A stretch of 64,000 bases of DNA from the NCBI RefSeq assembly GCF_000018145.1, contig NC_009952.1, forward strand, positions 2,356,001-2,420,000. The letters are read 5' to 3'. Under the pieces are notes generated by a model. The model ran no database searches, was not told where the DNA came from, and worked only from the letters and a program-made list of their open reading frames with translations. The DNA comes from Dinoroseobacter shibae DFL 12 = DSM 16493. Lineage in GTDB: Bacteria; Pseudomonadota; Alphaproteobacteria; Rhodobacterales; Rhodobacteraceae. Positions 2,775 to 62,247 of this stretch are shown here, in pieces; the stretch's first letter is position 1, and the number at the start of each line of letters is the position of its first letter. Both the position numbers and the translations under genes were made by a program.

Positions 2775-3911
2775 TCAGCCCAACCGTGCGGAGGCTCGGC
2801 GCGCCCCATCACTGAGGGCGGCGAGCTTGGCATAGGCGATGTCCGGATCCACCGCGCCGAACCCGGCGAAGGTCCCGAAGCCGCAATCCGATCCCGCGAT
2901 CACCCGGTCCGCACCGACGATCCCGGCAAAGCGTTCGATCCGCTGGGCGACAAGTTCCGGGTGTTCGACGAAATTCGTGGTGCTGTCGATGACCCCGGGC
3001 ACGAGGATCTTGTCCTCCGGGATCTCGGCCTTGCGGTCCCGGAATACCGTCCATTCGTGGGCATGGCGGGGGTTGGAGGTCTCGAACAGAAGCTGCTGCG
3101 CCGACACCCCCATGAGCGTGCCGAAGACCTTGTCCATGTCGATATCGCAGACATGGGGCCCCTCGTAGTTGCCCCAGCAGATATGCACCCGCACCCGGGC
3201 CGGGTCGATCCCCGCAAGCGCGTGGTTCAGAGCCTCCACATGGGCGCCGGCGATCTTGATGAACTCATCATCGGTCAAGTCGTTGAAAAGCATGTGCCGC
3301 GACAGCGCGAGGTCCGGGCAGTCAAGCTGCAGGTAGAGCCCCGCCTCCACGATGGTGCGGTATTCCTCGGCCATGGCGTCGGCCAGCGCGGCAAGATACG
3401 CGTCCCGGGTGGGATAAAAATCGTTTTGCAGAAACAGGGAGATGACCCCGGGCGAGGCGGCATTCATGAAGCCCTCGGATGCGCCATGGGCCGCCATCGC
3501 GGCCTTGAGGTTGGCGATGTCGGTCTGCAGCTCCCCCTGCCCCTTGGAACGCACTTCGCCCACGCACATGGGCCGGGCATAGGTGGGCGTGCCGCCTTCG
3601 TCCTTGAGCCGTTCGAGAAAGGCCGGGAACATCTTGAGATCCGCGGGGGCGTTGCGCTTGCTGTCCCCGGCAAAGCCCGTGTAGCGGTCCTTGACATAGG
3701 TGGCATAGCTGATCTTCGAGGTCTCGCCATCGCTGACCACGTCGATCCCTGCCTTGACCTGCTTGGCGACGGTTTCCTCACATCCCCGCGTCATCGCCGC
3801 CGCGAAGGCATCGGTGTCATATTCTGCGCCCTGCTCGCGGGCGAAGATGAAATCGACGACCTCCTGACTGCGCGGCAAGCTCCCCACATGGGTTGTGCGA
3901 ATGGCTGTCAT
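2775..3911 (-). CDS. MetE C-terminal-domain-like (cobalamin-independent) methyltransferase family protein
   Basis: A 378-residue TIM-barrel protein of the UROD/MetE superfamily corresponding only to the catalytic half of MetE. Zinc ligands are recognisable: H-x-C in VHICWGNYEG, Glu in LLFETSNPRH and Cys in GSDCGFGTF. The opening TTHVGSLPRS is typical of stand-alone MetE-core proteins. The usual N-terminal folate-binding half of MetE is absent. Family members include core methionine synthases and zinc lyases or methyltransferases of other substrates (epoxyalkane:CoM transferase is related), so the substrate cannot be assigned. The start at 3911 is chosen over an in-frame TTG at 3926 because it is ATG with a purine-rich GGGAGAG upstream. 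It is monocistronic by spacing. Confidence 0.85.
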   Translation of the reverse strand: MTAIRTTHVGSLPRSQEVVDFIFAREQGAEYDTDAFAAAMTRGCEETVAKQVKAGIDVVSDGETSKISYATYVKDRYTGFAGDSKRNAPADLKMFPAFLERLKDEGGTPTYARPMCVGEVRSKGQGELQTDIANLKAAMAAHGASEGFMNAASPGVISLFLQNDFYPTRDAYLAALADAMAEEYRTIVEAGLYLQLDCPDLALSRHMLFNDLTDDEFIKIAGAHVEALNHALAGIDPARVRVHICWGNYEGPHVCDIDMDKVFGTLMGVSAQQLLFETSNPRHAHEWTVFRDRKAEIPEDKILVPGVIDSTTNFVEHPELVAQRIERFAGIVGADRVIAGSDCGFGTFAGFGAVDPDIAYAKLAALSDGARRASARLG

Positions 3912-3965: not shown

Positions 3966-4937
3966 CTAGCGCAGCTCCTCCAGACCGGTGCCGGTCCAGT
4001 ACCACAGGAATTCACACGATCCGCCGCCGCGGTCCTGGCACATGGCGAGTGACCCGCCCGTCGCAACCCCTTGTAGCCCGTTCGACAGCGGTTGCAGCCG
4101 CACCCCGAGCGCCAACAGGGTCTCGGGCGCTCCGCTCCGGGCGCTCAGGAACACATCCACCGAACACATGGCGGCGCCACAGAACGGGCGCGCCGGACCG
4201 GAGCGGCAGGTCACGCTTCCCCAGTCCAGCACCACATCCTCGATCCCGTCCCCGTCGATCTGGCCGCGCAGGAGCGCAGATGGTTCCAGATCGAACGCCC
4301 CATTGCAGCCTTCGGTCAGGGCCGTGCGGGCACGCGCCTCCGTTCCATTGGCCTGCCAAGGGGCTGCCGGCTCCGGCAAGCCGACAACCCAAGGCTGACC
4401 GATGGCCGCAAAGCCCGCCGCGCAACTCTGGAGCAGCCGGGCATGAACCGAACCGAAACCGACGGCCGAGAGCGTCCGCATCTGCGCGTCAGACGCCGTA
4501 TAGATGCCGAATACCTCCGCCTGCGCGATCTCGGTGAAGGCGGGATCGGTGGCCGACAGCTCCGCCCCCCAGGAGCCGTCAAGCTCGTCCCAGATCAACT
4601 CCGGCAACTGGAAGCCCGCCCTGCCGACCACCAGCATCACGTCGCTGCGGCTGCCCTCGGACCGCGGCAAACCCAAGGTTGCGCTGCCGAAACCGATCCG
4701 GAGCGCGTCGGCGCGGGTGACCCGCGGTGTGGTATTGCCCGTCTGCAATGGTGACAGGCCGCGCACCGATTTTTCCCCGCATTCAAGAGCGAAGCTTCCC
4801 GCAGGGCCGCTCATGCTGTGCAAAAAGAAGGACCCGTCATCATGGCTGCGCAAGTTCCAGGTCTCGGCGCAAACCGCGGTACCGGTCAAAGTGAGCACGG
4901 CAGCTGCGAGACTGGACAGAATTGGAGGGAACGTCAC
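3966..4937 (-). CDS. Secreted/periplasmic protein of unknown function
   Basis: I do not recognise this 323-residue protein. The start is GTG at 4937, preceded by AAGGAG six bases away; the longer open frame to 5066 has no such site. The N-terminus (VTFPPILSSLAAAVLTLTGTAVCAETW) is a classical Sec signal peptide with likely cleavage after AVCA. The mature part contains several cysteines near the C-terminus (VTCRSG, PFCGAAMCSV, AMCQDRGGGSCEF), suggesting disulfides in the periplasm, and an acidic DGDGIEDVVLDWG stretch. It lies 53 bp after the MetE-like gene's start on the same strand and 82 bp downstream of the SnoaL-like gene. No function is proposed. Confidence 0.7.
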   Translation of the reverse strand: MTFPPILSSLAAAVLTLTGTAVCAETWNLRSHDDGSFFLHSMSGPAGSFALECGEKSVRGLSPLQTGNTTPRVTRADALRIGFGSATLGLPRSEGSRSDVMLVVGRAGFQLPELIWDELDGSWGAELSATDPAFTEIAQAEVFGIYTASDAQMRTLSAVGFGSVHARLLQSCAAGFAAIGQPWVVGLPEPAAPWQANGTEARARTALTEGCNGAFDLEPSALLRGQIDGDGIEDVVLDWGSVTCRSGPARPFCGAAMCSVDVFLSARSGAPETLLALGVRLQPLSNGLQGVATGGSLAMCQDRGGGSCEFLWYWTGTGLEELR

Positions 4938-5019: not shown

Positions 5020-6003
5020 TCATCCGGTCGCGAGCAGGATCTGCTTCCAGATCGCCGTCTCGTCATAGATCACGTGTTCCCGGCGCAAGCGCGGTGCGGC
5101 GGCACCAAGGCTGCCGAACTCCGCATGGCTGAGCCCCAGGATGTAGACCTCCGCCCCGGTGGGGGGACCGAACGCGCCCCATCCATCGTGACGCCCGTGG
5201 AGCGACCAGCGCAGGGCCGCGCGCGGCGGCATCTGGGGGTCCTCGCGCCCGATCTGGTGCTCGATCCGGAACTCGGCCGACGGAAAGGACGCCCGCAGCC
5301 CCATCCAGAACCGATCCGCCGCGCCGAAGGAATGCCCGGTGCGGCCCCCGGGATGCTCCAACTGGCAGGCCCGGTCATAACCCTCTGGAATGGCGGCCAT
5401 ATCCGCGCCCATGATCCGCGTGAGCAGATCGGCATAGCGCGCGCCCCATTCATTGTCATTGCCGCGCCCGGTGTAGGGCCCCACCCGGTCGGTCGCGGGT
5501 GTCAGGGGTTTGACACAGACCTCGGGACCACCTTCGCGCGCGATCTGATCGGCGGCGAAGGCTTTCGGCTCCCACCCCATCTGGCGCACGATGGCACCCT
5601 GATCCCGGATCAGCCATTCGTCATCAATCTGGTTGTTGCGCGCGTGGCAATCCGCGATGATCCGGTAGACCAGCGGCTTTCCCGTGGCCGCCCCGTAAAC
5701 ACCGTCGCCCAGATGGGTGGCGGTGCTCAACAGGCGGTGGGAGCTGAGCATCCCCTCCTCGGGCGTTCCGGACCAGATCACATCCTCGCCCAGCAGGGTG
5801 CGGTCGGGAAACTCCGCCAGTGTCGCCATGGTGGCCGCGATCACGCCCTGGTTGCCGATAACGACCGAGGCCGGGGACCGCACGACGATATCCGGCGCGT
5901 AATAGTGATGGAGGGTCGCGATGCCGCGATCTTCCCAGATCTCCTTGGTGATGCCGATGATGTAGTCGGGAAAATCCCGGAATTTCGGGTCAAACCCTTG
6001 CAT
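5020..6003 (-). CDS. SnoaL/NTF2-like protein, double domain (last gene of the HisD-like cassette)
   Basis: A 327-residue protein made of two SnoaL-like (NTF2 fold) modules: residues about 15-160 (HHYYAPDIVVRSP, DRTLLGEDVIWSGTPEEG) and 180-320 (ADRFWMGLRASFPSAEFRIEHQ, ALRWSLHGRHDGWG). SnoaL folds serve as cyclases, isomerases, hydrolases or ligand carriers, so the exact reaction is open. The start is ATG 6003 with GGAG five bases upstream; a GTG six bases earlier is in frame. It overlaps the lacI stop by 14 bp, indicating translational coupling. The cassette carries a second, diverged double-SnoaL protein (8498-9511), which suggests the two act in one pathway or as a heteromer (inference). Confidence 0.8.
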   Translation of the reverse strand: MQGFDPKFRDFPDYIIGITKEIWEDRGIATLHHYYAPDIVVRSPASVVIGNQGVIAATMATLAEFPDRTLLGEDVIWSGTPEEGMLSSHRLLSTATHLGDGVYGAATGKPLVYRIIADCHARNNQIDDEWLIRDQGAIVRQMGWEPKAFAADQIAREGGPEVCVKPLTPATDRVGPYTGRGNDNEWGARYADLLTRIMGADMAAIPEGYDRACQLEHPGGRTGHSFGAADRFWMGLRASFPSAEFRIEHQIGREDPQMPPRAALRWSLHGRHDGWGAFGPPTGAEVYILGLSHAEFGSLGAAAPRLRREHVIYDETAIWKQILLATG

Positions 6004-7024
6004 TTTCACTCCAATCCGCGGGCACCCGCGCGCTGTCGCGCACGATCAGCCGCCCTGCGATTTCCAGTTTTTCGGGCGCGCGGTCCGCATCGTCGATCAA
6101 CCCCAGCAGCAGCTCGACTGTCGCGGCCACCATGCGGTTCGAAGGTTGCCGCCATGTGGTCAGCCGGTACGCGCCCCAATCCGCCAGCGGCACATCATCG
6201 TAGCCCACGATGGACACATCCTCGGGGATCCTGACGCCCAGCTCCCCGCGCACGGTGTCCATCACGGCAAACGCCATGTGGTCATTGCCGACGAAGATCG
6301 CGTCCGGTGGTGCCGCGCCTGCAAAGAGCGCGTGCGCAGCCGCTTGCGCCTCCGCCCGCCGGTAGTGCCCGTCGACGATACCGTGAGCGGCGAGGCCTGC
6401 ATCCTCGAGCCCTGCGAGGAACCCGGCCTTTCGGTCGCGTCCGGTGCTCGACCCGGTCCAGCCGGTGATATGGGCGATGCGTTCGTGCCCGCCCGCTGCG
6501 AGAAAGCGGGCGATCTCGCGCGCGCCGGTGAAGTTGTCCGAGGTGACGGAAGACAGGCGCGCATCATCCTGGCCGCGGTTGAACATCACCACGGGGATGC
6601 CGGCGGAGTTGCAGCGTTTGGTCAACTCGTCCGACATGCCGACCGAAGCGGTGATGATACCGTCGACCTGGTAATCCAGCAGTTCGCCAATCACCCGGTC
6701 CACCTGCGCGCCCGTGCCGGAGGCCATGAAAACGAGGATGTGATAGCCACGATCCTGCAGCGCCATGGACAGGCGTTCCAGCGCGTCCGGGTAGAACTGG
6801 TTGTCGAGATAGGCGACCACCAGCCCGATGATCTTTGACTGGCCCGTGATGAGCGACCGCGCAAGCACGTTCGGGCGGTAGCCCAGCTCCTCGGCGGCGG
6901 CGCGGACCTTCTTGGCGGTTTTGGGCGAGACGGATGCACCGGGGGTGAAGACCCGGCTGACCGCGGACTGGCTGACCCCCGCAACCCGCGCGACGTCCAG
7001 CGATGTGACCCGGTCCCGCGCCAT
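5990..7024 (-). CDS. LacI-family transcriptional regulator
   Basis: A 344-residue repressor. The N-terminal helix-turn-helix is VTSLDVARVAGVSQSAVSRVF followed by the hinge helix region RPNVLARSLITGQS. The periplasmic-binding-like effector domain spans about residues 60-335 (IIGLVVAYLDNQFYPDALE, ITASVGMSDELT, VSIVGYDDVPLADW). It begins two bases after the SDR stop and overlaps the following SnoaL gene, so it sits inside the operon it presumably controls. A palindrome of LacI type (10885-10898) lies 65 bp before the first gene of the cassette. The effector is unknown; LacI members usually bind a sugar-like or polyol-like metabolite. Confidence 0.93.
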   Translation of the reverse strand: MARDRVTSLDVARVAGVSQSAVSRVFTPGASVSPKTAKKVRAAAEELGYRPNVLARSLITGQSKIIGLVVAYLDNQFYPDALERLSMALQDRGYHILVFMASGTGAQVDRVIGELLDYQVDGIITASVGMSDELTKRCNSAGIPVVMFNRGQDDARLSSVTSDNFTGAREIARFLAAGGHERIAHITGWTGSSTGRDRKAGFLAGLEDAGLAAHGIVDGHYRRAEAQAAAHALFAGAAPPDAIFVGNDHMAFAVMDTVRGELGVRIPEDVSIVGYDDVPLADWGAYRLTTWRQPSNRMVAATVELLLGLIDDADRAPEKLEIAGRLIVRDSARVPADWSENARV

Positions 7025-7026
7025 CC

Positions 7027-7779
7027 TCAGCCGCTGGTCCAGCCGCCATCGACCAGAAGGCCGGTTCCCGTCACCATCGCGCTGGCCGGGGAGCACAGGA
7101 ACACGACCGCGCCCATGATGTCCTCGATCTCGGCGACGCGGGGCAGCTTGATCTTGCCCATGATCCAGGCGCGCTTTTCGGGGTCGGCAAAGGTCGCCTC
7201 GGTCAGCGGTGTGCGAATGAAGGTCGGACACAGACTGTTGACGCGGATGCCGCGGGGGCCGAATTCCTGCGCCATGGCCTTGGTCATGCCTTCGACGCCG
7301 TGCTTGGAGGCGCAGTAGACCGCGCGGTCCAGCCCGCCCACATGGCCCATCTGGCTGCTGATCTGCACGATGCTGCCGCCGTCGGGCATGGTCCGGGCCG
7401 CGTTGGTGGCGAGGAAATAGGCTGCACGGAGGTTGACAGACATCACCGCATCGAAATCCTCGGGGCGAGTATCGAGTGCCGGAGAATGGCGCGCCAGCCC
7501 TGCCGAATTCACAAGGCAATCGAAGGGCGCCTGTGCGCCGAAGAATTCGGCCTGCGCGTCCAGGTCCGCGATGTCCAGTACGGCGGTTTCCACCGACCAG
7601 CCCTCGGCGCGCATCTCCGTGGCAGCGGCGTCCAACTCGGCCTGTCCACGCGCGGCCATCACCACATGGGCCCCGGCCTCGGCCAGAGCGACAGCGCACC
7701 CCAGTCCGATGCCCCGCGATGCCCCCGTGACGAGGGCGCGCTGGCCGTCCAGCCGAAACGAAGGGGTGCGGGGCAACAT
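7027..7779 (-). CDS. Short-chain dehydrogenase/reductase (SDR)
   Basis: A 250-residue classical SDR. The NAD(P) binding motif TGASRGIG is at residues 18-25, the NSAG motif near 91, the catalytic Ser around 141-142, and Tyr155/Lys159 in YCASK. VNSLCPTFIRTPLT and GLLVDGGWTSG are typical of the gluconate 5-dehydrogenase/3-oxoacyl reductase branch. The absence of a basic residue right after strand 2 start (VVMAARGQAEL contains Arg44) leaves NADP versus NAD open. The start is ATG 7779; a longer open frame begins 12 codons upstream with no better site. Its cassette partners are the HisD-like dehydrogenase, two SnoaL proteins and LacI, suggesting oxidation or epimerisation of a polyol or hydroxy acid. 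Confidence 0.92.
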   Translation of the reverse strand: MLPRTPSFRLDGQRALVTGASRGIGLGCAVALAEAGAHVVMAARGQAELDAAATEMRAEGWSVETAVLDIADLDAQAEFFGAQAPFDCLVNSAGLARHSPALDTRPEDFDAVMSVNLRAAYFLATNAARTMPDGGSIVQISSQMGHVGGLDRAVYCASKHGVEGMTKAMAQEFGPRGIRVNSLCPTFIRTPLTEATFADPEKRAWIMGKIKLPRVAEIEDIMGAVVFLCSPASAMVTGTGLLVDGGWTSG

Positions 7780-7848
7780 GGGACCACCTGAGCTTGCATT
7801 CCTATGCAGTCCCAAGTGCTACCCTGCGCCCGCCAGCCTGTCGAGGGG

Positions 7849-8484
7849 TCAACGCGGATATTCGATGCCCCGAAAAGCGGGGAAGTCCGCGTAGTGCGCA
7901 GCCCGATCACGCGGCGAAGGGTGGTCCGGCGACGCCAGAAGCCCCTTTGGACGGATGTACGACAGGATGCGTTTGCGCGGGGCCTCCCGCCAGGTCAGGT
8001 TGAAAGCGGCGGTGTTGGGGAAAAAATAGACCTCGTGAAAGTCGAGGTGATCCCAGAGCCACCAGGCCAGGTCGCGCCAATCCCGCCCCTCGGCATAGCG
8101 CCGCGCGAACCACGGGATCGAGACGGACGCACAGGCGCCCATCCGCCCCGTCACGTCGCGCCGGTCCCAGATATGACCAGCGTAATTCTTGGGGTTGGCG
8201 GCGCATTTCTGCGGCTTGACCTGCGTCGCCCCGAAATGGTTCAGGTTCGGCGCGCGATAAGCGGAGCGGATGTCGATCGGCCCGAAGGTTTCGACCAGTG
8301 GATCGAGCAGGTTTTCCGCCAGCGCCTGCCCGGCCTTGACCGCAAGGTCGGGATCATCAGGAATACTGGATATTTGATGGAAATTGCCAATTTCCGAGCC
8401 AAGAAAGTCTCGAAAGGCAAAATATCTGCTAAGTCTGATCCGGCCCAAATCCTCGAGGGCGGTGTAGCTGCGAGGTTTGCGCAT
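7849..8484 (-). CDS. Conserved-looking protein of unknown function, remotely peptidase-M15-like
   Basis: A 211-residue protein starting at ATG 8484, 13 bp after the stop of the second SnoaL gene. It has no signal peptide. Segments such as DIRSAYRAPNLN and GRMGACASVSIPWFA vaguely recall the S-x-x-R-S and G-x-A-x-D regions of D,D-carboxypeptidases of family M15, but the zinc-binding S-x-H-x-x-G-x-A-x-D and E-x-W-W-H motifs are not intact, so an active peptidase is doubtful. It is rich in Trp (DWRDLAWWLWDHLDFHE). Its position within the cassette may be incidental: a 69-bp gap separates it from the SDR. Confidence 0.6.
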   Translation of the reverse strand: MRKPRSYTALEDLGRIRLSRYFAFRDFLGSEIGNFHQISSIPDDPDLAVKAGQALAENLLDPLVETFGPIDIRSAYRAPNLNHFGATQVKPQKCAANPKNYAGHIWDRRDVTGRMGACASVSIPWFARRYAEGRDWRDLAWWLWDHLDFHEVYFFPNTAAFNLTWREAPRKRILSYIRPKGLLASPDHPSPRDRAAHYADFPAFRGIEYPR

Positions 8485-8497
8485 CCGATTACTCCGC

Positions 8498-9511
8498 TCA
8501 ATCGCGCAGTTCGGCCATGCGCGCGAGCACATCCACACCGATCTGCGCATAAAGATCCAGAAGATCCACGAGCACCCAGTTTTCGCGGATCAGCCCTTCC
8601 TCCAGCCGCCAGAAATCCAGCGAGCGCAAGGTGACCTCCTGCCCGGCAGGCGCAATGCCGAGCCAGCCGTCCCCGGTCAGGGTCTGGGCCATGTTCGGCC
8701 AGCCGGTCACGCCCACATAGGCGCCCTCGGCAAAGAAATGGGAGGTTGTCTTTTCCGGCTGCTGGCCCCGGTCGGGCATTGCCTTGAGAAACGGGATCTG
8801 GTGGTGACGGCGAAACCCGTCGATCCCGCGCCCGGTGCCGATACCGGCCGGGCCGTACCACATCATCCTGGGGTGCCAGAAACGGTCCAACTCCATCACT
8901 TCCGGGCCGCCTTCTTGCGGGTGGCGGATCATCGCAGCGAGCATGGCGACGACATGGGCGCACGCCTGCGCTCCGTCGCCCGTGTGAGGCCCGAGCCCGT
9001 CGCCCGGAGCGGGGCTCGGTACGCACCATTCCCGCCCGAGGCTGGGCGAGAGCGGCCAGACCCCGGCTTGCATCATCATCTCCGGCAGGTCCCAGACCGC
9101 CTGCATCTCGACCACCTGCCCCTCCGCAATGCGGAAAAACTCGTGGTAGCGCATGTGGACCACGCGCCGGGTCGGAGGGATACCCAGTAACGGAGCGATG
9201 AACGTCCCGAGATAGAGCCCCGCACAGCCGAGCCAGAGCGCGCCGTCATGGTCCTGTCCGGCGAGGACGATCTGGTCGCGCCGTTCGCCATCAGGCATGG
9301 CAGAGGCCAAAGGGCCGAGCGCGGTTTGCCAAAGCCCCTGCCAGCCGGTGACATCGCCGAATGGGTGACACAGGCGGATACGTGCCTGCGGGGCGAACAC
9401 GGTAGTCCCGGACCCGGCAGCCCCGCCCAGATCATGGTAAAGCGCCGCCCGAAGCGGCGCGAGCAACGCCCGGGCTGCCCGCGGCGCGTCGGCCCTATTC
9501 GGCGGCGTCAC
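8498..9511 (-). CDS. SnoaL/NTF2-like protein, double domain (second of the pair)
   Basis: About 337 residues with two SnoaL-like modules ([20 protein letters not shown] in the first; [19 protein letters not shown] and [22 protein letters not shown] in the second). The second module looks like the standard SnoaL ending in which an acidic residue and His/Asp line the pocket. The start is uncertain: GTG at 9511 overlaps the HisD-like stop by 17 bp, and ATG at 9532 is in frame. It is translationally coupled to the dehydrogenase in either case. It is a diverged relative of the SnoaL protein at 5020-6003 by architecture rather than by obvious sequence identity. Confidence 0.78.
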
Positions 9512-10820
9512 GGTAGGGCGCGCCCTCGCCATAGGGCACGTTGATCCCGCCGTAGCGGCGCACCCTGACATTGCATTGTTCCGCATGACCGACGAAGCCT
9601 TCCAGCATGCACAACCGCGAGCCATACTCGCCCACGAGCTTCGCCGCCTCGTCGGTCAGCACCTTCTGGTAGCTATGGGTCTTGAGGAACTTGCCGACCC
9701 AAAGCCCCCCGGTATACCGCCCGGCCTTCTTCGTCGGCAGGGTATGGTTGGTACCGATCACCTTGTCGCCATTGGCCACGTTGGTGCGCGGGCCGAGGAA
9801 GAGCGCGCCATAGTTGGTCATGTTATCGAGGAACCAGTCATCCCGGTCCGTCATGACCTGCACATGTTCCGACGCAACGTCGTCCGCGACGCGCAGCATC
9901 TCGTCATAGTCGGTACAAAGGATCACCTCGCCGTAGTCTTCCCAGCTGACACGCGCAGTCTCGGCGGTGGGCAGGATGGCCAGAAGGCGGTCAATCTCGG
10001 AGAGCGTATCCTCGGCCAGTTTACGCGAGCAGGTGATCAGAACGGCAGGAGAGTTGTAGCCATGCTCCGCCTGGCCAAGCAGGTCGGTCGCCACCATTTC
10101 CCCATCCACGGTGTCGTCGGCGATCACGCATGTCTCGGTCGGCCCGGCAAACAGATCAATTCCCACGCGCCCGAAAAGCTGCCGCTTGGCTTCGGCGACA
10201 AAGGCATTGCCCGGCCCCACGAGCATGTCCACGGGCGCAATGCTCTCGGTTCCGAGAGCCATGGCCCCGACGGCCTGCACCCCGCCGAGCACGAGGATCT
10301 CGTCCGCCCCGCCCTCATGCATGGCCGCCACGATGGCCGGGTGCGGCGCGCCCTTCACGGGCGGTGCGGAGGCGACCACGCGCTTCACCCCAGCCACCTT
10401 GGCGGTGATCACCGACATATGGGCGCTGGCCACCATGGGGAACTTGCCCCCGGGCACATAACACCCCACGGAGTTCACGGGGATGTTCTTGTGGCCCAGG
10501 ATCACACCGGGAATGGTTTCAACCTCCACATCAGTCATGCTGGCGCGCTGGACTTGCGCGAAGTTGCGGATTTGATCCTGGGCGAACCGGATATCGCCCA
10601 TCTCGCGGGTGGTGACCTTCTGCATCGCTGCTTCGATTTCGGAGGGCGACAGCCGGAAGGCCTGTGGCGTATAACCGTCGAACTTCTCGCTCAGATCCCG
10701 CACGGCGGCATCCCCGCGGGTCGAGATGTCTTGCAGGATGCCCGTCACGGTCGCCTGCGTGCGCGCGTCGTCCTCGGCGCGCTCGGTTTCGGATTTTCCT
10801 CGCTTCAGATACTCGGCCAT
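9495..10820 (-). CDS. HisD-family dehydrogenase, resembles sulfopropanediol 3-dehydrogenase HpsN
   Basis: A 441-residue zinc/NAD+ dehydrogenase of the histidinol dehydrogenase family. Metal and catalytic positions remain visible: GQAEHG (Gln, His), SEHVQV (catalytic Glu-His), [13 protein letters not shown] (Asp) and GFVGHAEQ (His). The substrate-binding surroundings differ from true HisD (for example [19 protein letters not shown]). From memory this matches the HpsN type, which oxidises (R)-2,3-dihydroxypropane-1-sulfonate to sulfolactate, better than biosynthetic HisD; I cannot verify this by alignment. It is first in the cassette with SnoaL, SDR and LacI genes, so a catabolic role is likely rather than histidine synthesis. 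No TRAP or sulfolyase genes of a classic hps locus lie nearby. Confidence 0.85.
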
Positions 10821-10884
10821 ATCCCCTCCAGACCTGCGGTGTTAACCTGAGGATAAGGTTTTGGCGCGGTGCCTCAAGTCAAAA

Positions 10885-10898
10885 TGCATACGATTGCA
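10885..10898. promoter_or_regulatory. Candidate LacI-family operator
   Basis: TGCATACGATTGCA is an imperfect palindrome with the central CG dyad characteristic of LacI-family operators (half-sites TGCATAC and TGCAATC). It is flanked by A-rich sequence, 65 bp upstream of the HisD-like start codon, in the only sizeable gap of the cassette. The cassette-encoded LacI protein is the obvious candidate to bind it. Confidence 0.55.
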
Positions 10899-10909
10899 AA
10901 ATTGCTATG

Positions 10910-12999: not shown

Positions 13000-13018
13000 G
13001 AGCGTGTCGCGTTTAATC
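13000..13018 (+). repeat. Left terminal inverted repeat of the IS630-family element
   Basis: GAGCGTGTCGCGTTTAATC pairs imperfectly with the right end (about 14 of 19 positions). The orfB stop codon (13013-13015) lies inside this repeat. Confidence 0.75.
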
Positions 13019-13588
13019 GGTTTTATATCCTGCGGCCTTGAAGAAGTTGTAGCATTCCTCGTCGGTGAAGAGGTCGCACACATGACCGACAGCCTGCCAA
13101 AGTTCATGGTAGGTTCGGGCTGCAGCCTTTCGGATCAGGACCTTGAGCTTTGAGAAGGCCATCTCGATCGGGTTGAGGTCGGGACTGTAGGGCGGCAGGA
13201 ACAGGAACCACGCGCCGATATCTCGCATGGCCTTGGCTGCGCCGGGGCTCTTATGGCTCGACAAGTTGTCGAGGATGACCACGTCGCCCGGACCCAAGGT
13301 CGGCACCAGCTGGGTCTCGATATAGAGGTCGAACAACTCGCCGTTCATTGCGCCATCGATCACCCACGGGGCATCGAGGCGATCATGGCGCAGGGCACCG
13401 ATGAAGGTCTGGGTGCGCCAATGCCCGAACGGCGCGTGATCGACCAGGCGTTGCCCGCGCGGGGCCCAGCCGGTGGTCTTGGCCATGTTCGTCTTGAGCG
13501 ATGTCTCGTCGATGAAAGCCAGCCTTTCCAGATGTCTGGCCATGAAGGGCTGGCGTTTGCCGATCCATATGCGGCGCAGATCGGCCAC
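13013..13588 (-). CDS. IS630-family transposase, OrfB (DDE catalytic part)
   Basis: A 191-residue frame (GTG at 13588 as first possible start) holding the DDE triad: Asp in AFIDETSLKTNM, Asp in VVILDNLSSHKS and Glu in LNPIEMAFSKLK. It is out of frame with OrfA by +1 (equivalently -2). The two are joined across a run of seven A (minus strand, 13622-13628), so the full transposase is probably made by programmed slippage rather than independent initiation. The open frame extends upstream of 13588 through that A-run, consistent with fusion. Confidence 0.88.
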   Translation of the reverse strand: MADLRRIWIGKRQPFMARHLERLAFIDETSLKTNMAKTTGWAPRGQRLVDHAPFGHWRTQTFIGALRHDRLDAPWVIDGAMNGELFDLYIETQLVPTLGPGDVVILDNLSSHKSPGAAKAMRDIGAWFLFLPPYSPDLNPIEMAFSKLKVLIRKAAARTYHELWQAVGHVCDLFTDEECYNFFKAAGYKTD

Positions 13589-13604
13589 GTCCTGACGCTT
13601 CTGC

Positions 13605-13967
13605 TCAAGGGCTTGCAGGTCTTTTTTTGTGTGACAGCCCGAGCCTGAGCAGCAGCCGACCGACCGACGAGCGATGAACCTTCACCCCGTGTTTCGCGGC
13701 CAGTTCCGCGGTCAACTCGTCAATCGTCAGATCGGGTTGCGCCGTGATCCGGCTCTCCACCCAGCCTTTGACGCTGGTCAGTTTGCCGCGCCCGGGATTG
13801 CCCTGAGGTTTCGGCGCGAGCGAGCCGGTCTCGCGCTTGAGCCGCACCATGTCGTTGACGAACTTGATCGACACGCACAGCCGCCGAGCCGCCTCTGTGT
13901 GCGTGTTGCCCTGCTCGACAAGCCGCACGGCACGTTCACGCAACTCAACAGGATGCGCTTTGCCCAT
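13605..13967 (-). CDS. IS630-family transposase, OrfA (helix-turn-helix part)
   Basis: A 120-residue N-terminal DNA-binding part starting at ATG 13967 (MGKAHPVELRERAVRLVEQG). The paired HTH region includes THTEAARRLCVSIKFVNDM and LTIDELTAELAAKHGVKVHRSSV. It ends a few codons after the A7 run (SHKKRPASP-stop), where shifting frame gives DLQALEQKRQDVADLRR and continues into OrfB. That makes one Tc1-like transposase of about 320 residues. Confidence 0.85.
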   Translation of the reverse strand: MGKAHPVELRERAVRLVEQGNTHTEAARRLCVSIKFVNDMVRLKRETGSLAPKPQGNPGRGKLTSVKGWVESRITAQPDLTIDELTAELAAKHGVKVHRSSVGRLLLRLGLSHKKRPASP

Positions 13968-14034
13968 CTCTGACCTCCATATCTGCCTGAAAGACATGGA
14001 ATCATAGGAACAACATCAGGGGAATCCTGAATCT

Positions 14035-59318: not shown

Positions 59319-61234
59319 ATCAGCCGGCGACCATACCAGTCGCGAACCCGGCGCCGGCCGGCGGGCTAGGTGCACCCCTGGGCGGGCTTTTCGCGCTGTT
59401 GGTGATCTGTGTGATCGCCTTTGCAACTCTCGATGAGGCCACGGCCCGGTTCGGGGCGATCGCGCTATCCGTGGCTATTGTGGGTCTGGCACACCCCGCC
59501 AGGCGTGGCAGGCCGTCGGGGCGGGCGGTCGACGCTGCTCTCCTGGCCGGTTTCGGCTGCGCGGGTTGGTGGTTTCACGCGGTCAAGGCGGAATTGTGGA
59601 CCGGGTTTTTCGTGGCGACGCCTTTGTCCGTGCTCGCGGGTCTGGCCGGGGTTTTCACCGTGATCGTGCTGGCAGCACGGGTTTGGGGCAGATCGCTGGC
59701 GATTCTCGCCGGGGCCTTGATCCTCTATGCCTTCGGCGGGCCTTACCTGCCCAACGCGGTCGCCCATTTCGGCGTAGGCTTGGGCGATTTCGTGCAAATC
59801 ACGTGGTACTCCTTCGACGGGGTCTTCGGGCGAATGACCGGTCTGGTTGCCAGTAACCTGCTGATTTTCCTAATCCTGGGTGCGGTGCTGCAGCAAACGG
59901 GCGCAGGCGAGAGCCTGATCCGGCTGTCAACGGCACTGCTTGGGCGGGTGCGCGGCGGCGGGGCCCATGCCGCCATTGCTGCCAGCGCGGTCTTCGGCAT
60001 GATGAACGGCTCCGTTGCCGCGAACATCGCGGGCACGGGCGTTTTCACCATTCCGATGATCAAGCGGCAGGGGTTTTCAAGCCGCTTTGCCGGAGCGGTC
60101 GAGGCCGCGGCGTCCTCAGGCGGGCAACTTACCCCGCCCATCATGGCCGCCACGGTCTTCGTGATGGCCGACCTCGTTGGGCTGCCGCTGCTGATGGTGA
60201 TTGCTGCCGCCGCCCTGCCCGCCCTGTTCAAATATCTCGGCCTTTTCGCGCAGGTCTATGTGGAGGCCTTGCGCTTGGATATCCGCCCCCTGGCTGCCGA
60301 GGATATTCCCAAGCTCACGCGGCAGGACTGGCTGCAATCGGCCCTCGTTCTGGTGCCGCTTGCCGTACTGATGATCGCGTTCCTGTCAGGCAGCTCACCC
60401 GCCATGGCGGGGCTTGCCGGTACGATCGCGGCCCTTGTGACGGGCCTTGTGTTGACGCCCCAGCTCCGGCAGCAACCGATCCGGATCTGGTGGGCGCTCT
60501 GTGCAGGCGGGCTCGCGTCGGCACGGATCCTGCTATCGGTTGCGGTCATCGGGATAGTGCTGGCCGTGGTAAACGAGACCGGCATCGCGATCCGCTTCGC
60601 TGTCGCGCTCTCCGAGGTCGGCGATGCCTATCTGCCCCTGGCATTACTGATGGCGATGCTTGGGGCGCTTGTCCTCGGGATGGGGTTGCCGACACTGCCG
60701 GCCTACCTGATCGTCGCGATCATGATCGTACCAACGCTCATTGAGGCAGGCGTTCTGCCCCTCGCCGCGCATATGTTCGTTCTGTACTTCGCGGTGTTTT
60801 CCTCGATCATGCCACCCATTGCCTATGGCTGTTTCGTGGCGGCCCCTATTGCGGGGGCGGATGCCTTGCGGATCTCGTTCACCGCGCTGCGGATTTCGAT
60901 CGTCGGCTTGATCGTGCCTTTCGCGTTCGTCTATGCGCCGTCGCTCTTGCTGGTGGCGGGCAGCTTCAGTTGGGCGGAGCTTCTGACCACGGCGCTGCGC
61001 CTGTCATTGGCCAGTTGGCTGCTTGCCACTGCTCTGGGCGGCGCGGACCCGGTGCTGGGACGTTTGCCGCGGCACAATCGCATGCTGCGCGGGGGCGCCG
61101 CCTGCGCCGTGATGGTGCCGACGGTCGCCCTCTGGGGCCCCGGGCTGGCCTTGGGCATCGCTATGGGGGTGCTGCACCCCCTGCACCGGGCGGGCTGGAT
61201 CAAGCGGGTCTCCCTGCGGGCGCATGGCACATGA
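59315..61234 (+). CDS. TRAP transporter fused permease (TAXI type)
   Basis: A 639-residue polytopic membrane protein in which the small (4-TM) and large (12-TM) TRAP permease domains are fused, as is usual for TAXI systems. Signature stretches are GSVAANIAGTGVFTIPMIKRQGF, EAAASSGGQLTPPIMAATVFVMAD, LVLGMGLPTLPAYLIVAIMIVP and FSSIMPPIAYGCFVAAPIAGA. Many hydrophobic helices run throughout. It overlaps the marR and binding-protein genes by ATGA junctions. It uses an ion gradient to import the ligand caught by the TAXI protein. Confidence 0.94.
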   Translation: MNQPATIPVANPAPAGGLGAPLGGLFALLVICVIAFATLDEATARFGAIALSVAIVGLAHPARRGRPSGRAVDAALLAGFGCAGWWFHAVKAELWTGFFVATPLSVLAGLAGVFTVIVLAARVWGRSLAILAGALILYAFGGPYLPNAVAHFGVGLGDFVQITWYSFDGVFGRMTGLVASNLLIFLILGAVLQQTGAGESLIRLSTALLGRVRGGGAHAAIAASAVFGMMNGSVAANIAGTGVFTIPMIKRQGFSSRFAGAVEAAASSGGQLTPPIMAATVFVMADLVGLPLLMVIAAAALPALFKYLGLFAQVYVEALRLDIRPLAAEDIPKLTRQDWLQSALVLVPLAVLMIAFLSGSSPAMAGLAGTIAALVTGLVLTPQLRQQPIRIWWALCAGGLASARILLSVAVIGIVLAVVNETGIAIRFAVALSEVGDAYLPLALLMAMLGALVLGMGLPTLPAYLIVAIMIVPTLIEAGVLPLAAHMFVLYFAVFSSIMPPIAYGCFVAAPIAGADALRISFTALRISIVGLIVPFAFVYAPSLLLVAGSFSWAELLTTALRLSLASWLLATALGGADPVLGRLPRHNRMLRGGAACAVMVPTVALWGPGLALGIAMGVLHPLHRAGWIKRVSLRAHGT

Positions 61235-62247
61235 TCCGGTCGGGTGCCAAAAGAATGCTGGGTGCGGGCATCCTCGCGGTTGCGACGCTCCAGTTCCCCG
61301 GGGGCGCCTTGGCCGAGCGGTACAAGGTCACCTCCCTCGCACCGGGCCTCACGCCTTTCGTGGTCAACACGACCATTGCCCGGGTCGTGAACACCCATGT
61401 GGACGGCATCGAGTTACAGGTCAGCGCCACGGGCACGGCCACACGGCACATGATGGACGCCGCCACCGGACGCGTCGACTTTCTGTTCGGTGCACCCACC
61501 ATCAACTGGATGATGGTCAATCGCCTCGGCCCATTCCAGCATTTCGAGACGGCACCCGCGCTGGAGCAAAACGTGGGCATGATCTTCGCCTACCAGATGG
61601 GGCCTTACCACTACATCACGCGCGCGGGGTCCGGCATCGAGAGCCTGGCCGATCTGCGAAGTCGGACCGTGTTCGCGGGCCCTCCCGGCGGCGCCGCCAC
61701 CGAGGTGGTCCTGCGTGTCATCGAACAATCCACCGGTATCACGCCGGGCGAGATGAAGCTCCAGGCCTTCGGGTTCGACGCCGCGATCCAGGCATTTCAG
61801 GATGGCAAGATCGACGTGATCGTCCTGCCCACGAACCTGCCAAGCGCCGCGGTCCAGCAATTCGCCCTGACAAGCCGGATCCGGTTGCTGGATGTCGATC
61901 TGCGCAATGTGACGATCCGAGCGGAGACCGGCGGAACCGCCAACGAGATACCCCCGGATGCCTACGGGCCGAACCAGGTCAACGACACGGCCACGCGCAC
62001 CCATGGATCGATTGTGAATTTCAGCGCCGGGATGCATGTCCCGGAACATGTCGTCTACGAAGTGACCCGGGCGATCTGGGAAAACCTCGGCGACATCCAT
62101 AGCGCCGCCGACTGGATGCCCGGCACGATCACGCCTGAAATGGCGCTCTCTCTGGTCTCTGGGCGGCTGCATCCCGGGGCAGAGCGCTACTACCGTGAGG
62201 CCGGCTGGCCGATCCCCGAGGCCATCACATTTCCCCCACCGGGCTGA
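61231..62247 (+). CDS. TAXI-family TRAP solute-binding protein
   Basis: A 338-residue periplasmic protein: signal peptide MIRSGAKRMLGAGILAVATL with probable cleavage after GALA. The TAXI domain shows VSATGTATRHMMDAATGRVDFLF, SLADLRSRTVFAGPPGGAA and FGFDAAIQAFQDGKIDVIVLPTN (cut into blocks), ending PGAERYYREAGW. Start ATG 61231 within the permease stop. It delivers substrate to the fused permease; what it binds is not evident. Confidence 0.92.
   Translation: MIRSGAKRMLGAGILAVATLQFPGGALAERYKVTSLAPGLTPFVVNTTIARVVNTHVDGIELQVSATGTATRHMMDAATGRVDFLFGAPTINWMMVNRLGPFQHFETAPALEQNVGMIFAYQMGPYHYITRAGSGIESLADLRSRTVFAGPPGGAATEVVLRVIEQSTGITPGEMKLQAFGFDAAIQAFQDGKIDVIVLPTNLPSAAVQQFALTSRIRLLDVDLRNVTIRAETGGTANEIPPDAYGPNQVNDTATRTHGSIVNFSAGMHVPEHVVYEVTRAIWENLGDIHSAADWMPGTITPEMALSLVSGRLHPGAERYYREAGWPIPEAITFPPPG

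Follow-up and report, generated by a model that had tools for sequence, protein, structure and literature searches.

The closest described relative of the enzyme studied here is HpsN, the R-DHPS 3-dehydrogenase of C. pinatubonensis acting on dihydroxypropanesulfonate (DHPS; PDB 8v35; also 8wwe). According to the available part of the report on HpsN, its residue His126 binds the sulfonate, and the motif G-R-Y-A/S-H was defined there (PMC11382572). Like HpsN, the dehydrogenase found in the window (the whole stretch of 64,000 nucleotides of Dinoroseobacter shibae DFL 12 that was analysed) belonged to the HisD fold family, kept the zinc and catalytic residues and Lys353, and had LacI and SDR genes as neighbors; the two enzymes formed sister clades. 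They were 46-49% identical, but the window enzyme carried G-K-F-P-M without the sulfonate-binding His, and the neighbors of window-type genes, unlike those of hpsN, included SnoaL, cupin, MetE-like, and RraA genes. L-histidinol dehydrogenase (HisD) shared the fold family, the zinc ligands, and the catalytic Glu-His pair with the window enzyme, whereas it belonged to another clade with another motif, showed 31-41% identity in the aligned set, and the window gene was located outside a his operon. The NTF2 and SnoaL folds are kin. The Novosphingobium deformylases LdpA and PcfL, which were compared with the SnoaL proteins by family alone, represent the NTF2 family in catabolism in the available parts of their descriptions (PMC12997858, PMC11323797), but they act on lignin dimers and have no HisD partner.

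All of the genes named in the sequence-only reading, a HisD-like gene, two double-SnoaL genes, an SDR gene, and a LacI gene, were found by Pfam analysis at positions 5020-10820 on the minus strand (Table 1). SnoaL-A and SnoaL-B each exceeded the Pfam gathering score for SnoaL with two domains per protein, and the LacI regulator contained both the HTH and the effector domain. The start codon of SnoaL-A was an inferred ATG overlapping the HisD-like gene. The unit extended beyond the named interval, down to the end of the MetE-like gene at position 2775. The count of two SnoaL genes was correct for the window but did not describe the whole set, as relatives carried up to four SnoaL genes, with cupin, MetE-like, alpha/beta-hydrolase, and RraA genes beside them.

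Table 1. Features of the cassette and its extended unit, in positions of the window.
Feature	Position	Strand	Basis
LacI-type operator-like palindrome ATGCATACGATTGCAA	10884-10899	.	5' of the HisD-like gene; exact match to WTGCANNCGNNTGCAW
HisD-fold dehydrogenase, 441 aa, third subfamily (G-K-F-P-M)	9495-10820	-	Pfam Histidinol_dh, 446 bits; motif; tree
SnoaL-A, double SnoaL-domain protein	8498-9532	-	Pfam SnoaL, 2 stretches, 70 bits
Orphan, 211 aa	7849-8484	-	recurrent neighbor of SnoaL-A/B
SDR dehydrogenase	7027-7779	-	domain match; pairs with the HisD-like gene
LacI-family regulator	5990-7024	-	Pfam LacI and Peripla_BP_3
SnoaL-B, double SnoaL-domain protein	5020-6009	-	Pfam SnoaL, 2 stretches
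Orphan, probably secreted	3966-4937	-	no Pfam match; signal peptide and start judged by eye
MetE-like protein (core methionine-synthase fold), last gene of the unit	2775-3911	-	Pfam Meth_synt_2

An alignment of 128 HisD-family proteins (alignments of at least 330 columns kept, exact duplicates dropped) bore out the claim that the catalytic and metal residues were retained. The residues Q250, H253, E318, H319, D352, and H412, which were near-invariant among the aligned proteins, were all kept in the window enzyme, and the zinc ligands and Glu318/His319/Asp352 of HpsN were present together with Lys353. The motif G-K-F-P-M was found in 91 of the 128 proteins, the window enzyme included, while all six HpsN sequences showed GRYS/AH at the same place. 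In a tree drawn from 70 of the 128 rows, the window clade (39 rows, support 100/98) and the HpsN clade (6 rows, 100/99) were separated from each other, and true HisD stood apart. The bootstrap of this tree was not settled (0.980) and long end branches were kept (the odd divergent HisD L260, the C. pinatubonensis HpsN L263, and others), so that some long-branch joins may be false. The label of the window group had been given to 41 rows and needs changing for two of them, divergent rows with GRYPL and GRFPL that fell outside the 39-row clade. By alignment and tree, the HisD-like enzyme belongs to a clade of its own, the third, which is the sister of HpsN and does not include true HisD. The tree comparison with HpsN and HisD that had been proposed was thus carried out, and the protein did not group with true HisD. 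The description "HpsN-like" was right as to the sister relationship, but the enzyme lay outside the HpsN clade and was devoid of the G-R-Y-S/A-H motif. Identity with HpsN was rejected by the motif and the separate sister clade, and identity with true HisD by the motif and the tree. In public records the gene carries the label of histidinol dehydrogenase, which can mislead surveys of the histidine pathway and of DHPS.

The window SDR was 54-69% identical to eight SDRs adjoining the same HisD subfamily, versus 35-37% to HpsO and two SDRs encoded beside hpsN (37% to HpsO itself). The SDR is a dedicated partner of the HisD-like gene; hpsN and hpsO are paired likewise in C. pinatubonensis. Counting paralogues, 81 of 198 family genomes had a match to SnoaL-A. 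For SnoaL-B, matches were found in 91 of the 198 at any accepted score and in 82 below 1e-100, the latter by a hand count among the matches listed. A search of Pfam and NCBIfam with the 211-aa orphan returned nothing at E 0.01, yet homologues existed in 72 of the 198 genomes, and in at least 23 of those 72 (hand count) they were located within about 5 kb of a SnoaL-A or SnoaL-B match. The orphan at the other end of the unit occupied a place that in some relatives, among them L065, L090, and L101, was taken by a weak homologue (28-31% identity) between the cupin and MetE-like genes. Sequence searches of the PDB gave very weak matches for SnoaL-B and zero matches for the cupin and MetE-like proteins. 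The presence of two double-SnoaL copies, which had been regarded as unusual for catabolism, was confirmed; their supposed rarity was not, since NTF2-family enzymes do act in catabolism, as exemplified by the deformylases LdpA and PcfL in the available part of their description (PMC12997858).

The gene-neighborhood comparison revealed that the cassette was co-conserved. The HisD, SnoaL-A, SDR, and LacI genes all preceded SnoaL-B in 62 of the 74 near relatives with room, and most of these relatives contained a longer operon with an added sugar-type ABC importer, cupin, MetE-like, and RraA genes. Where there was room downstream of SnoaL-B (68 loci), an RraA gene followed in 56. The tally of neighbors across 80 loci covered 30 reference proteins. 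Enolase-superfamily, ADH, and MFS genes were located beside the operon in 9 of the 80 loci each and were not counted as core; TmpA/TmpB-like genes adjoining L065 and 2-aminoethylphosphonate genes near L226 were read as separate neighbors. In the plasmid-borne regions, aldolase genes of the RraA or HpcH type were found near HisD in 5 of the 12 annotated regions viewed, and none was annotated in the other seven (L227, L229, L264, L265, L266, L268, and L269). Some of these seven regions contained CoA-ligase, enoyl-CoA hydratase, 3-hydroxyacyl-CoA dehydrogenase, or acyl-CoA dehydrogenase genes, which may belong to another lower pathway.

The palindrome suggested earlier to match the LacI regulator was present and conserved in related loci. 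On its own the window match was weak: it was the only match to the motif in the window, although exact, whereas 0.91 matches were expected by chance at up to one mismatch and at least one appeared in 65 of 100 shuffles. The motif lay near the start of the ABC ATPase gene in 52 of 63 related loci. Altogether, 94 sites were counted in the 80 loci (60 of the 80 with one), compared with one in reversed sequence; as the motif was derived from those same loci, the count is descriptive and not a test. This conservation supports the palindrome as a predicted LacI operator. No operator match was found at the ABC locus of the D. shibae genome, and likewise at L234. The genome contained four operator-like sites, two of them in an inositol cluster that has a LacI of its own (gene names read by eye); these two were left out of the regulon.

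Searches for ABC, cupin, RraA, and HpcH genes gave no match anywhere in the 64-kb window. The claim that transport genes were absent therefore held for the surroundings of the cassette and the window, but not for most near relatives, in which the ABC importer is part of the operon. The remote import system proposed as an alternative gained specific candidates: D. shibae orthologues of the ABC importer and the single-SnoaL protein (56-80% identity) were located at a distance of about 0.9 Mb, and the same operator motif was present at a TAXI-TRAP transporter in another part of the genome. Relatives of this transporter were found beside HisD-SDR in three of five other regions viewed, of which L234 and L297 contained both RraA and HpcH, and L298 an HpcH homologue; in L295 and L296 the transporter relative was apart from HisD, with the operator exact or with one mismatch. 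The sole cupin match in the D. shibae genome was partial (45%) and lay next to an RraA gene (59%) in a different cluster. In one relative, the solute-binding protein showed weak matches to general sugar binders in the PDB, and it thus points to no one substrate. Importers differed among the HisD-SDR regions (ABC, TRAP, and branched-chain ABC), so the substrates may differ as well.

The MetE-like protein contained the Meth_synt_2 domain with H243, C245, E277, and C343, read from the motif positions, which we take to be zinc ligands. The Mes-like gene PGA1_c27430 of Phaeobacter inhibens was taken as the MetE-like gene of the operon because the published upstream knock-out primer matched inside the cupin gene; with up to four mismatches, the primer matched within this gene in 73 of 73 cupin-bearing loci. 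In the available part of that report, PGA1_c27430 was studied solely as a possible methionine synthase and the operon was not discussed; the mutant was grown without added methionine, and a bmt mutant was given methionine (PMC12366255).

We favor, at about even chances, a LacI-repressed catabolic operon, with its central part in the window, that forms one unit in most near relatives and is split into remote pieces in D. shibae, in which diol oxidation by the HisD-like enzyme, the SDR, and an aldolase lead to pyruvate. LacI would be released by an inducer formed from the substrate after import. By the chemistry of HisD and HpsN, the HisD-like enzyme would take a vicinal diol (R-CHOH-CH2OH) to the 2-hydroxy acid by oxidizing its terminal CH2OH with two NAD+, and the SDR would oxidize or epimerize the neighboring OH. 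RraA and/or HpcH-type pyruvate aldolases would then split a 2-oxo-4-hydroxy acid into pyruvate and an aldehyde; this end of the pathway, suggested by gene neighborhood, fails in 7 of the 12 plasmid regions. The SnoaL and MetE-like proteins might act upstream, by isomerase, dehydratase, hydrolase, or C1/alkyl-transfer steps converting complex precursors to the diol, although these roles are guesses. As for the substrate, a compound resembling a sugar acid or polyol is probable, one that is polyhydroxylated, carries no sulfonate, and may be 3-deoxy or branched; mycosporine-type compounds, pantoate, and isosaccharinate were considered as conceivable substrates. The sequence-only reading had proposed the cassette as a candidate for an undescribed pathway; a full-text search of open-licence papers with narrow terms found no description of the operon and no named substrate, which agrees with this, while the enzymatic steps are proposals.

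Removal of a methyl or methoxy group was considered as another function, with a methylated polyol or a cyclohexenone-type algal metabolite donating its methyl or alkyl group to the MetE-like protein and the SnoaL proteins acting on the ring. Of the 73 loci with room downstream of SnoaL-B, 65 had a MetE-like homologue there, a SAM methyltransferase gene was present in 15 of the 80 loci, relatives of the MetE-like gene on sphingomonad plasmids lay near an aminomethyltransferase (read as LigM-type), MetF, and FolD, and the P. inhibens mutant was, as noted above, grown without added methionine. This possibility is nevertheless unlikely, as it lacks a known methylated substrate and several HisD-SDR clusters have no annotated MetE-like gene. 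SnoaL cyclases, SDRs, and methyltransferases are typical of biosynthetic clusters, and these gene types would fit a small cluster making a polyketide-like or cyclized secondary metabolite. Such a non-catabolic role is quite improbable given the solute-binding importer in the operon, the LacI regulator with its operator, and the RraA-family gene, and neither of the two complete operons inspected with annotation (L226 and L233) has a gene annotated as a synthase. The SnoaL and MetE-like fold families also both include members acting on epoxides. A SnoaL protein like limonene-epoxide hydrolase and a MetE-like protein like epoxyalkane:CoM transferase could supply the HisD-like enzyme with its vicinal diol, which would account for these genes traveling with a diol oxidase; however, no oxygenase was annotated in the same two operons and the operon importer is of the sugar type, making an epoxide route very improbable.

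A diverged operon of the hpsN type, serving DHPS or a closely related C3 sulfonate, would be consistent with the best PDB matches of the HisD-like enzyme, which were DHPS dehydrogenases, with its sister position to HpsN and Lys353, and with the grouping of LacI, HisD, and SDR genes as in C. pinatubonensis. Against this, the sulfonate-binding His was replaced by Met (Leu in two rows) throughout the 39-row clade, the SDR shared little more than a third of its residues with HpsO, and the genome already encodes an HpsN with GRYSH, whose gene is followed by one for an SDR sharing 52% identity with HpsO; a TRAP permease gene, identified by eye, precedes this hpsN. We regard a sulfonate operon as highly unlikely. 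The hisD annotation in public records, and a score above the TIGR00069 cut-off, would suit a second histidinol dehydrogenase serving histidine metabolism, but the tree position outside true HisD, the true hisD elsewhere in the genome (C1:1000603, 558 bits), and the LacI and SDR neighbors, plus an importer in relatives, make this scarcely credible.

Beyond the operon itself, the G-K-F-P-M clade may represent a third catalytic class of the HisD superfamily, a reading that we hold at slightly less than even chances. Together with the SDR, and with RraA/HpcH in roseobacters, it would serve an undescribed route fed by the SnoaL and MetE-like proteins, which would lead to pyruvate from a non-sulfonated vicinal diol (a branched or 3-deoxy sugar acid, for example) and would let a large part of the Rhodobacteraceae live on a common phytoplankton compound so far overlooked as a substrate. 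The restriction of aldolase genes to 5 of the 12 plasmid regions lowered our confidence in both this and the catabolic operon. The system is common, with a close SnoaL-B in about two fifths of the family genomes sampled. Once its substrate is assigned, a carbon source used by a large clade of mostly marine bacteria would be named, and the HisD superfamily would gain a third chemistry.

Pfam analysis of the window (G000:C1:2356001-2420000 of the 4.4-Mb genome) revealed the six-gene cassette where the sequence-only reading had placed it, with support for every gene except the 211-aa orphan, and the two double-domain SnoaL proteins that it described each contained two SnoaL stretches. The reported absence of transport genes beside the cassette was borne out by tblastn with a reference protein set, which found no ABC, cupin, RraA or HpcH genes in the 64-kb window. 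Two adjoining ORFs at 13013-13997 resembled an IS630-type transposase pair by eye.

Genes of the unit and the operator-like palindrome (window positions)
Feature	Position	Strand	Remarks
HisD-like	9495-10820	-	Pfam match; first gene in transcription order
SnoaL-A	8498-9532 (start inferred)	-	Pfam match, two SnoaL stretches; second gene
211-aa orphan	7849-8484	-	No Pfam/NCBIfam match; third gene
SDR	7027-7779	-	Pfam match; fourth gene
LacI	5990-7024	-	Pfam match; fifth gene
SnoaL-B	5020-6009	-	Pfam match, two SnoaL stretches; sixth gene
Probable secreted orphan	3966-4937	-	In unit, downstream of SnoaL-B
MetE-like	2775-3911	-	Meth_synt_2; in unit, downstream of SnoaL-B
Operator-like palindrome	10884-10899

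A sequence search showed that the best solved-structure matches of the HisD-like protein were DHPS (dihydroxypropanesulfonate) dehydrogenases (8wwe, 402 bits; 8v35, 396 bits), followed by histidinol dehydrogenases at no more than 246 bits. The sulfonate is bound by His126 of a G-R-Y-A/S-H motif, which sets HpsN apart from HisD with its G-S-A-P-L (PMC11382572). Among 128 aligned HisD-family proteins, in which the zinc and catalytic residues were conserved almost throughout, G-K-F-P-M was found in 91, the window protein included, G-x-A-x-Y in 22 (the genome's true hisD has this pattern), GRYS/AH in 6 and other letters in 9. A tree of 70 of these proteins, which drew a long-branch warning and whose bootstrap was not fully settled (0.980), contained three groups: true HisD, with 22 rows at support 97/93 and one very long extra row; HpsN, with 6 rows at 100/99, among them the C. 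pinatubonensis gene that carries the hpsN annotation; and the window clade, with 39 rows at 100/98, which is the sister group of HpsN (98/92). Two divergent rows branched below both the HpsN and the window clades. Assignment to true HisD was rejected because motif and tree placed the protein outside that group, and assignment to HpsN because of G-K-F-P-M in place of G-R-Y-A/S-H and the separate sister clade. The proposed non-histidinol pocket with retained catalytic and metal residues agrees with the alignment, and the tree placement against HpsN and HisD, set beforehand as a check, gave a third clade. Judged by sequence, we take the operon's third HisD subfamily to be real. The genome also carries true hisD and hpsN (L002; assigned by motif), and the SDR after this hpsN showed 52% identity to HpsO, the partner SDR.

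SnoaL-B matches were found in 91 of the 198 sampled family genomes (82 below 1e-100, hand count), and at E 1e-20 in 29/385 genomes of the class sample and 23/398 of the phylum sample, both of which include D. shibae and overlapping members. A GTDB contig scan gave at least 569 SnoaL-B relatives among at least 594 matched stretches, and the locus counts refer to the best 80, which are near relatives. The usual order in these loci was (SnoaL-C, reversed)-ATPase-binding protein-permease-permease-single SnoaL-HisD-like-SnoaL-A-SDR-LacI-SnoaL-B-cupin-MetE-like-RraA, with an alpha/beta hydrolase preceding RraA in annotated examples. Counted only where the contig left room, the genes were present as follows: LacI 77/80, SDR 70/77, SnoaL-A 70/74, HisD 69/74, single SnoaL 64/74, cupin 69/78, MetE-like 65/73, RraA 56/68 and ATPase 62/73. 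The cassette was co-conserved, HisD, SnoaL-A, SDR and LacI all lying upstream of SnoaL-B in 62/74 near relatives with room and at least one being missing in 12. The 211-aa orphan gene occurred in 72/198 family genomes; in at least 23 of these 72, no more than about 5 kb separated it from a SnoaL-A/B match (hand count, among the matches listed), and in many genomes it lay away from any listed match; by eye, its His/Asp/His spacing slightly resembled M15 peptidases. TauD-family and HD-domain genes near the operon in one genome (L065 16113-17839) resembled the TmpA/TmpB phosphonate pair.

The motif WTGCANNCGNNTGCAW, derived from the loci of relatives only, lay close to where the ATPase gene starts in 52 of the 63 loci with a recognised ATPase. 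It gave 94 sites in 80 loci versus 1 in reversed sequences, and four other palindromes gave 0, 0, 0 and 2 sites in the same loci. The D. shibae genome contained four sites (reversed control, none): besides that of the window, an inositol cluster that has a LacI of its own holds two, and the fourth lies upstream of a TAXI-TRAP transporter. The palindrome that had been matched to LacI is operator-like, with a motif conserved across relatives.

The ABC importer and single SnoaL of the relatives had D. shibae orthologues (56-80% identity) about 0.9 Mb away at C1:1466486-1471379, a locus with no operator match. The TAXI-TRAP binding protein had matches below 1e-40 in 10/198 family genomes; the upstream operator was exact in 2 of these loci (D. 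shibae included), had one mismatch in 1 and was absent from 7. Five other regions were viewed widely (L234, L295-L298) and the remaining five within 1.5 kb. The transporter adjoined a HisD-SDR pair of the window's type in three of the five (L234, Antarctobacter heliothermus; L297; L298) and lay apart from it in L295 and L296, which bear the exact and one-mismatch operators. Because of the distant ABC orthologues and the operator-bearing TAXI-TRAP, the substrate is likely imported by a remote system, an alternative already raised from the sequence. A different TAXI-TRAP lies at window 59420-62220 (permease 33% and binding protein 24% identical to the operator-bearing one).

A paralogous cluster of the D. 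shibae genome at C1:3304170-3312880 (L165 8171-16881) comprised a binding protein, two permeases, ATPase, LacI (54% to the window LacI), cupin, alpha/beta hydrolase and RraA. An HpcH aldolase gene adjoined it in divergent orientation, and the cluster contained no recognised SnoaL, HisD or MetE-like gene. Another ABC-SDR cluster of this genome at C1:1404298-1414825 (L064 4299-14826) contained a double-SnoaL protein with 48% identity to a relative's SnoaL-C and, by eye, an FAD-linked oxidase.

The HisD-like subfamily also occurred on plasmids of rhizobia, Roseibium, Aminobacter, Martelella and Novosphingobium. Among 12 annotated plasmid regions with a HisD-like gene of the window clade (unannotated L228, L231 and L232 left out), an SDR followed it directly or past SnoaL-A in nine (L226, L227, L229, L230, L233, L234, L267, L268, L269) and in neither way in L264, L265 and L266. 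The window SDR was 54-69% identical to the SDRs of L065 and seven of these nine (L226 and L233 left out), and 35-37% identical to HpsO and two hpsN-adjoining SDRs. An RraA or HpcH-type aldolase gene was annotated in 5/12 regions (L226, L230, L233, L234, L267) and in none of the other seven; L227, L229, L265 and L266 had CoA-type genes in its place. Since only 5/12 had the gene, gene content ties the predicted aldolase end to clusters of the roseobacter type and not to the HisD clade at large.

In Phaeobacter inhibens, the operon's MetE-like gene is most likely PGA1_c27430, which has been examined for a possible role in core methionine synthesis (PMC12366255); we judge this from primer matches on loci of related genomes other than P. 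inhibens. Its upstream knock-out primer matched (up to 4 mismatches) within the cupin gene in 73/73 cupin-bearing loci, and the downstream primer, with 2 mismatches, just past the MetE-like gene of Phaeobacter italicus (L125). Its mutant was cultivated with no methionine supplement, and the DMSP lag shortening persisted (PMC12366255); a methionine-synthase role of such homologues has also been doubted (PMC12478193). No further literature on the neighbouring locus tags was found besides PMC12366255. MetE-like relatives on sphingomonad plasmids (L220, L221, L225) adjoined both a single NTF2 protein and a regulator of the IclR family, with aminomethyltransferase or GcvT-type genes and MetF nearby. 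Those on Dietzia and Rhodococcus plasmids (L222, L223) lay beside a 2-oxoglutarate oxygenase, a YaaH-type transporter, a phytanoyl-CoA dioxygenase family protein and an HD-domain protein.

A search of open-licence full-text literature with narrow terms found no published description of the operon. Folds of the NTF2/SnoaL type have catabolic uses, as seen in the NTF2-family deformylases LdpA and PcfL (PMC12997858, PMC11323797). In the pathway that we favour as a proposal, the substrate would first be imported, and the HisD-like enzyme would oxidise a terminal CH2OH next to a hydroxyl group, yielding a 2-hydroxy acid, a step proposed because of known HisD and HpsN chemistry (PMC11382572). The SDR would oxidise or epimerise the neighbouring OH, as the hpsN-hpsO gene pair suggests, and RraA/HpcH aldolases would cleave the product. 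The aldolase step and the substrate class we infer from gene neighbourhood and known family functions; the widely conserved catabolic operon itself is real.
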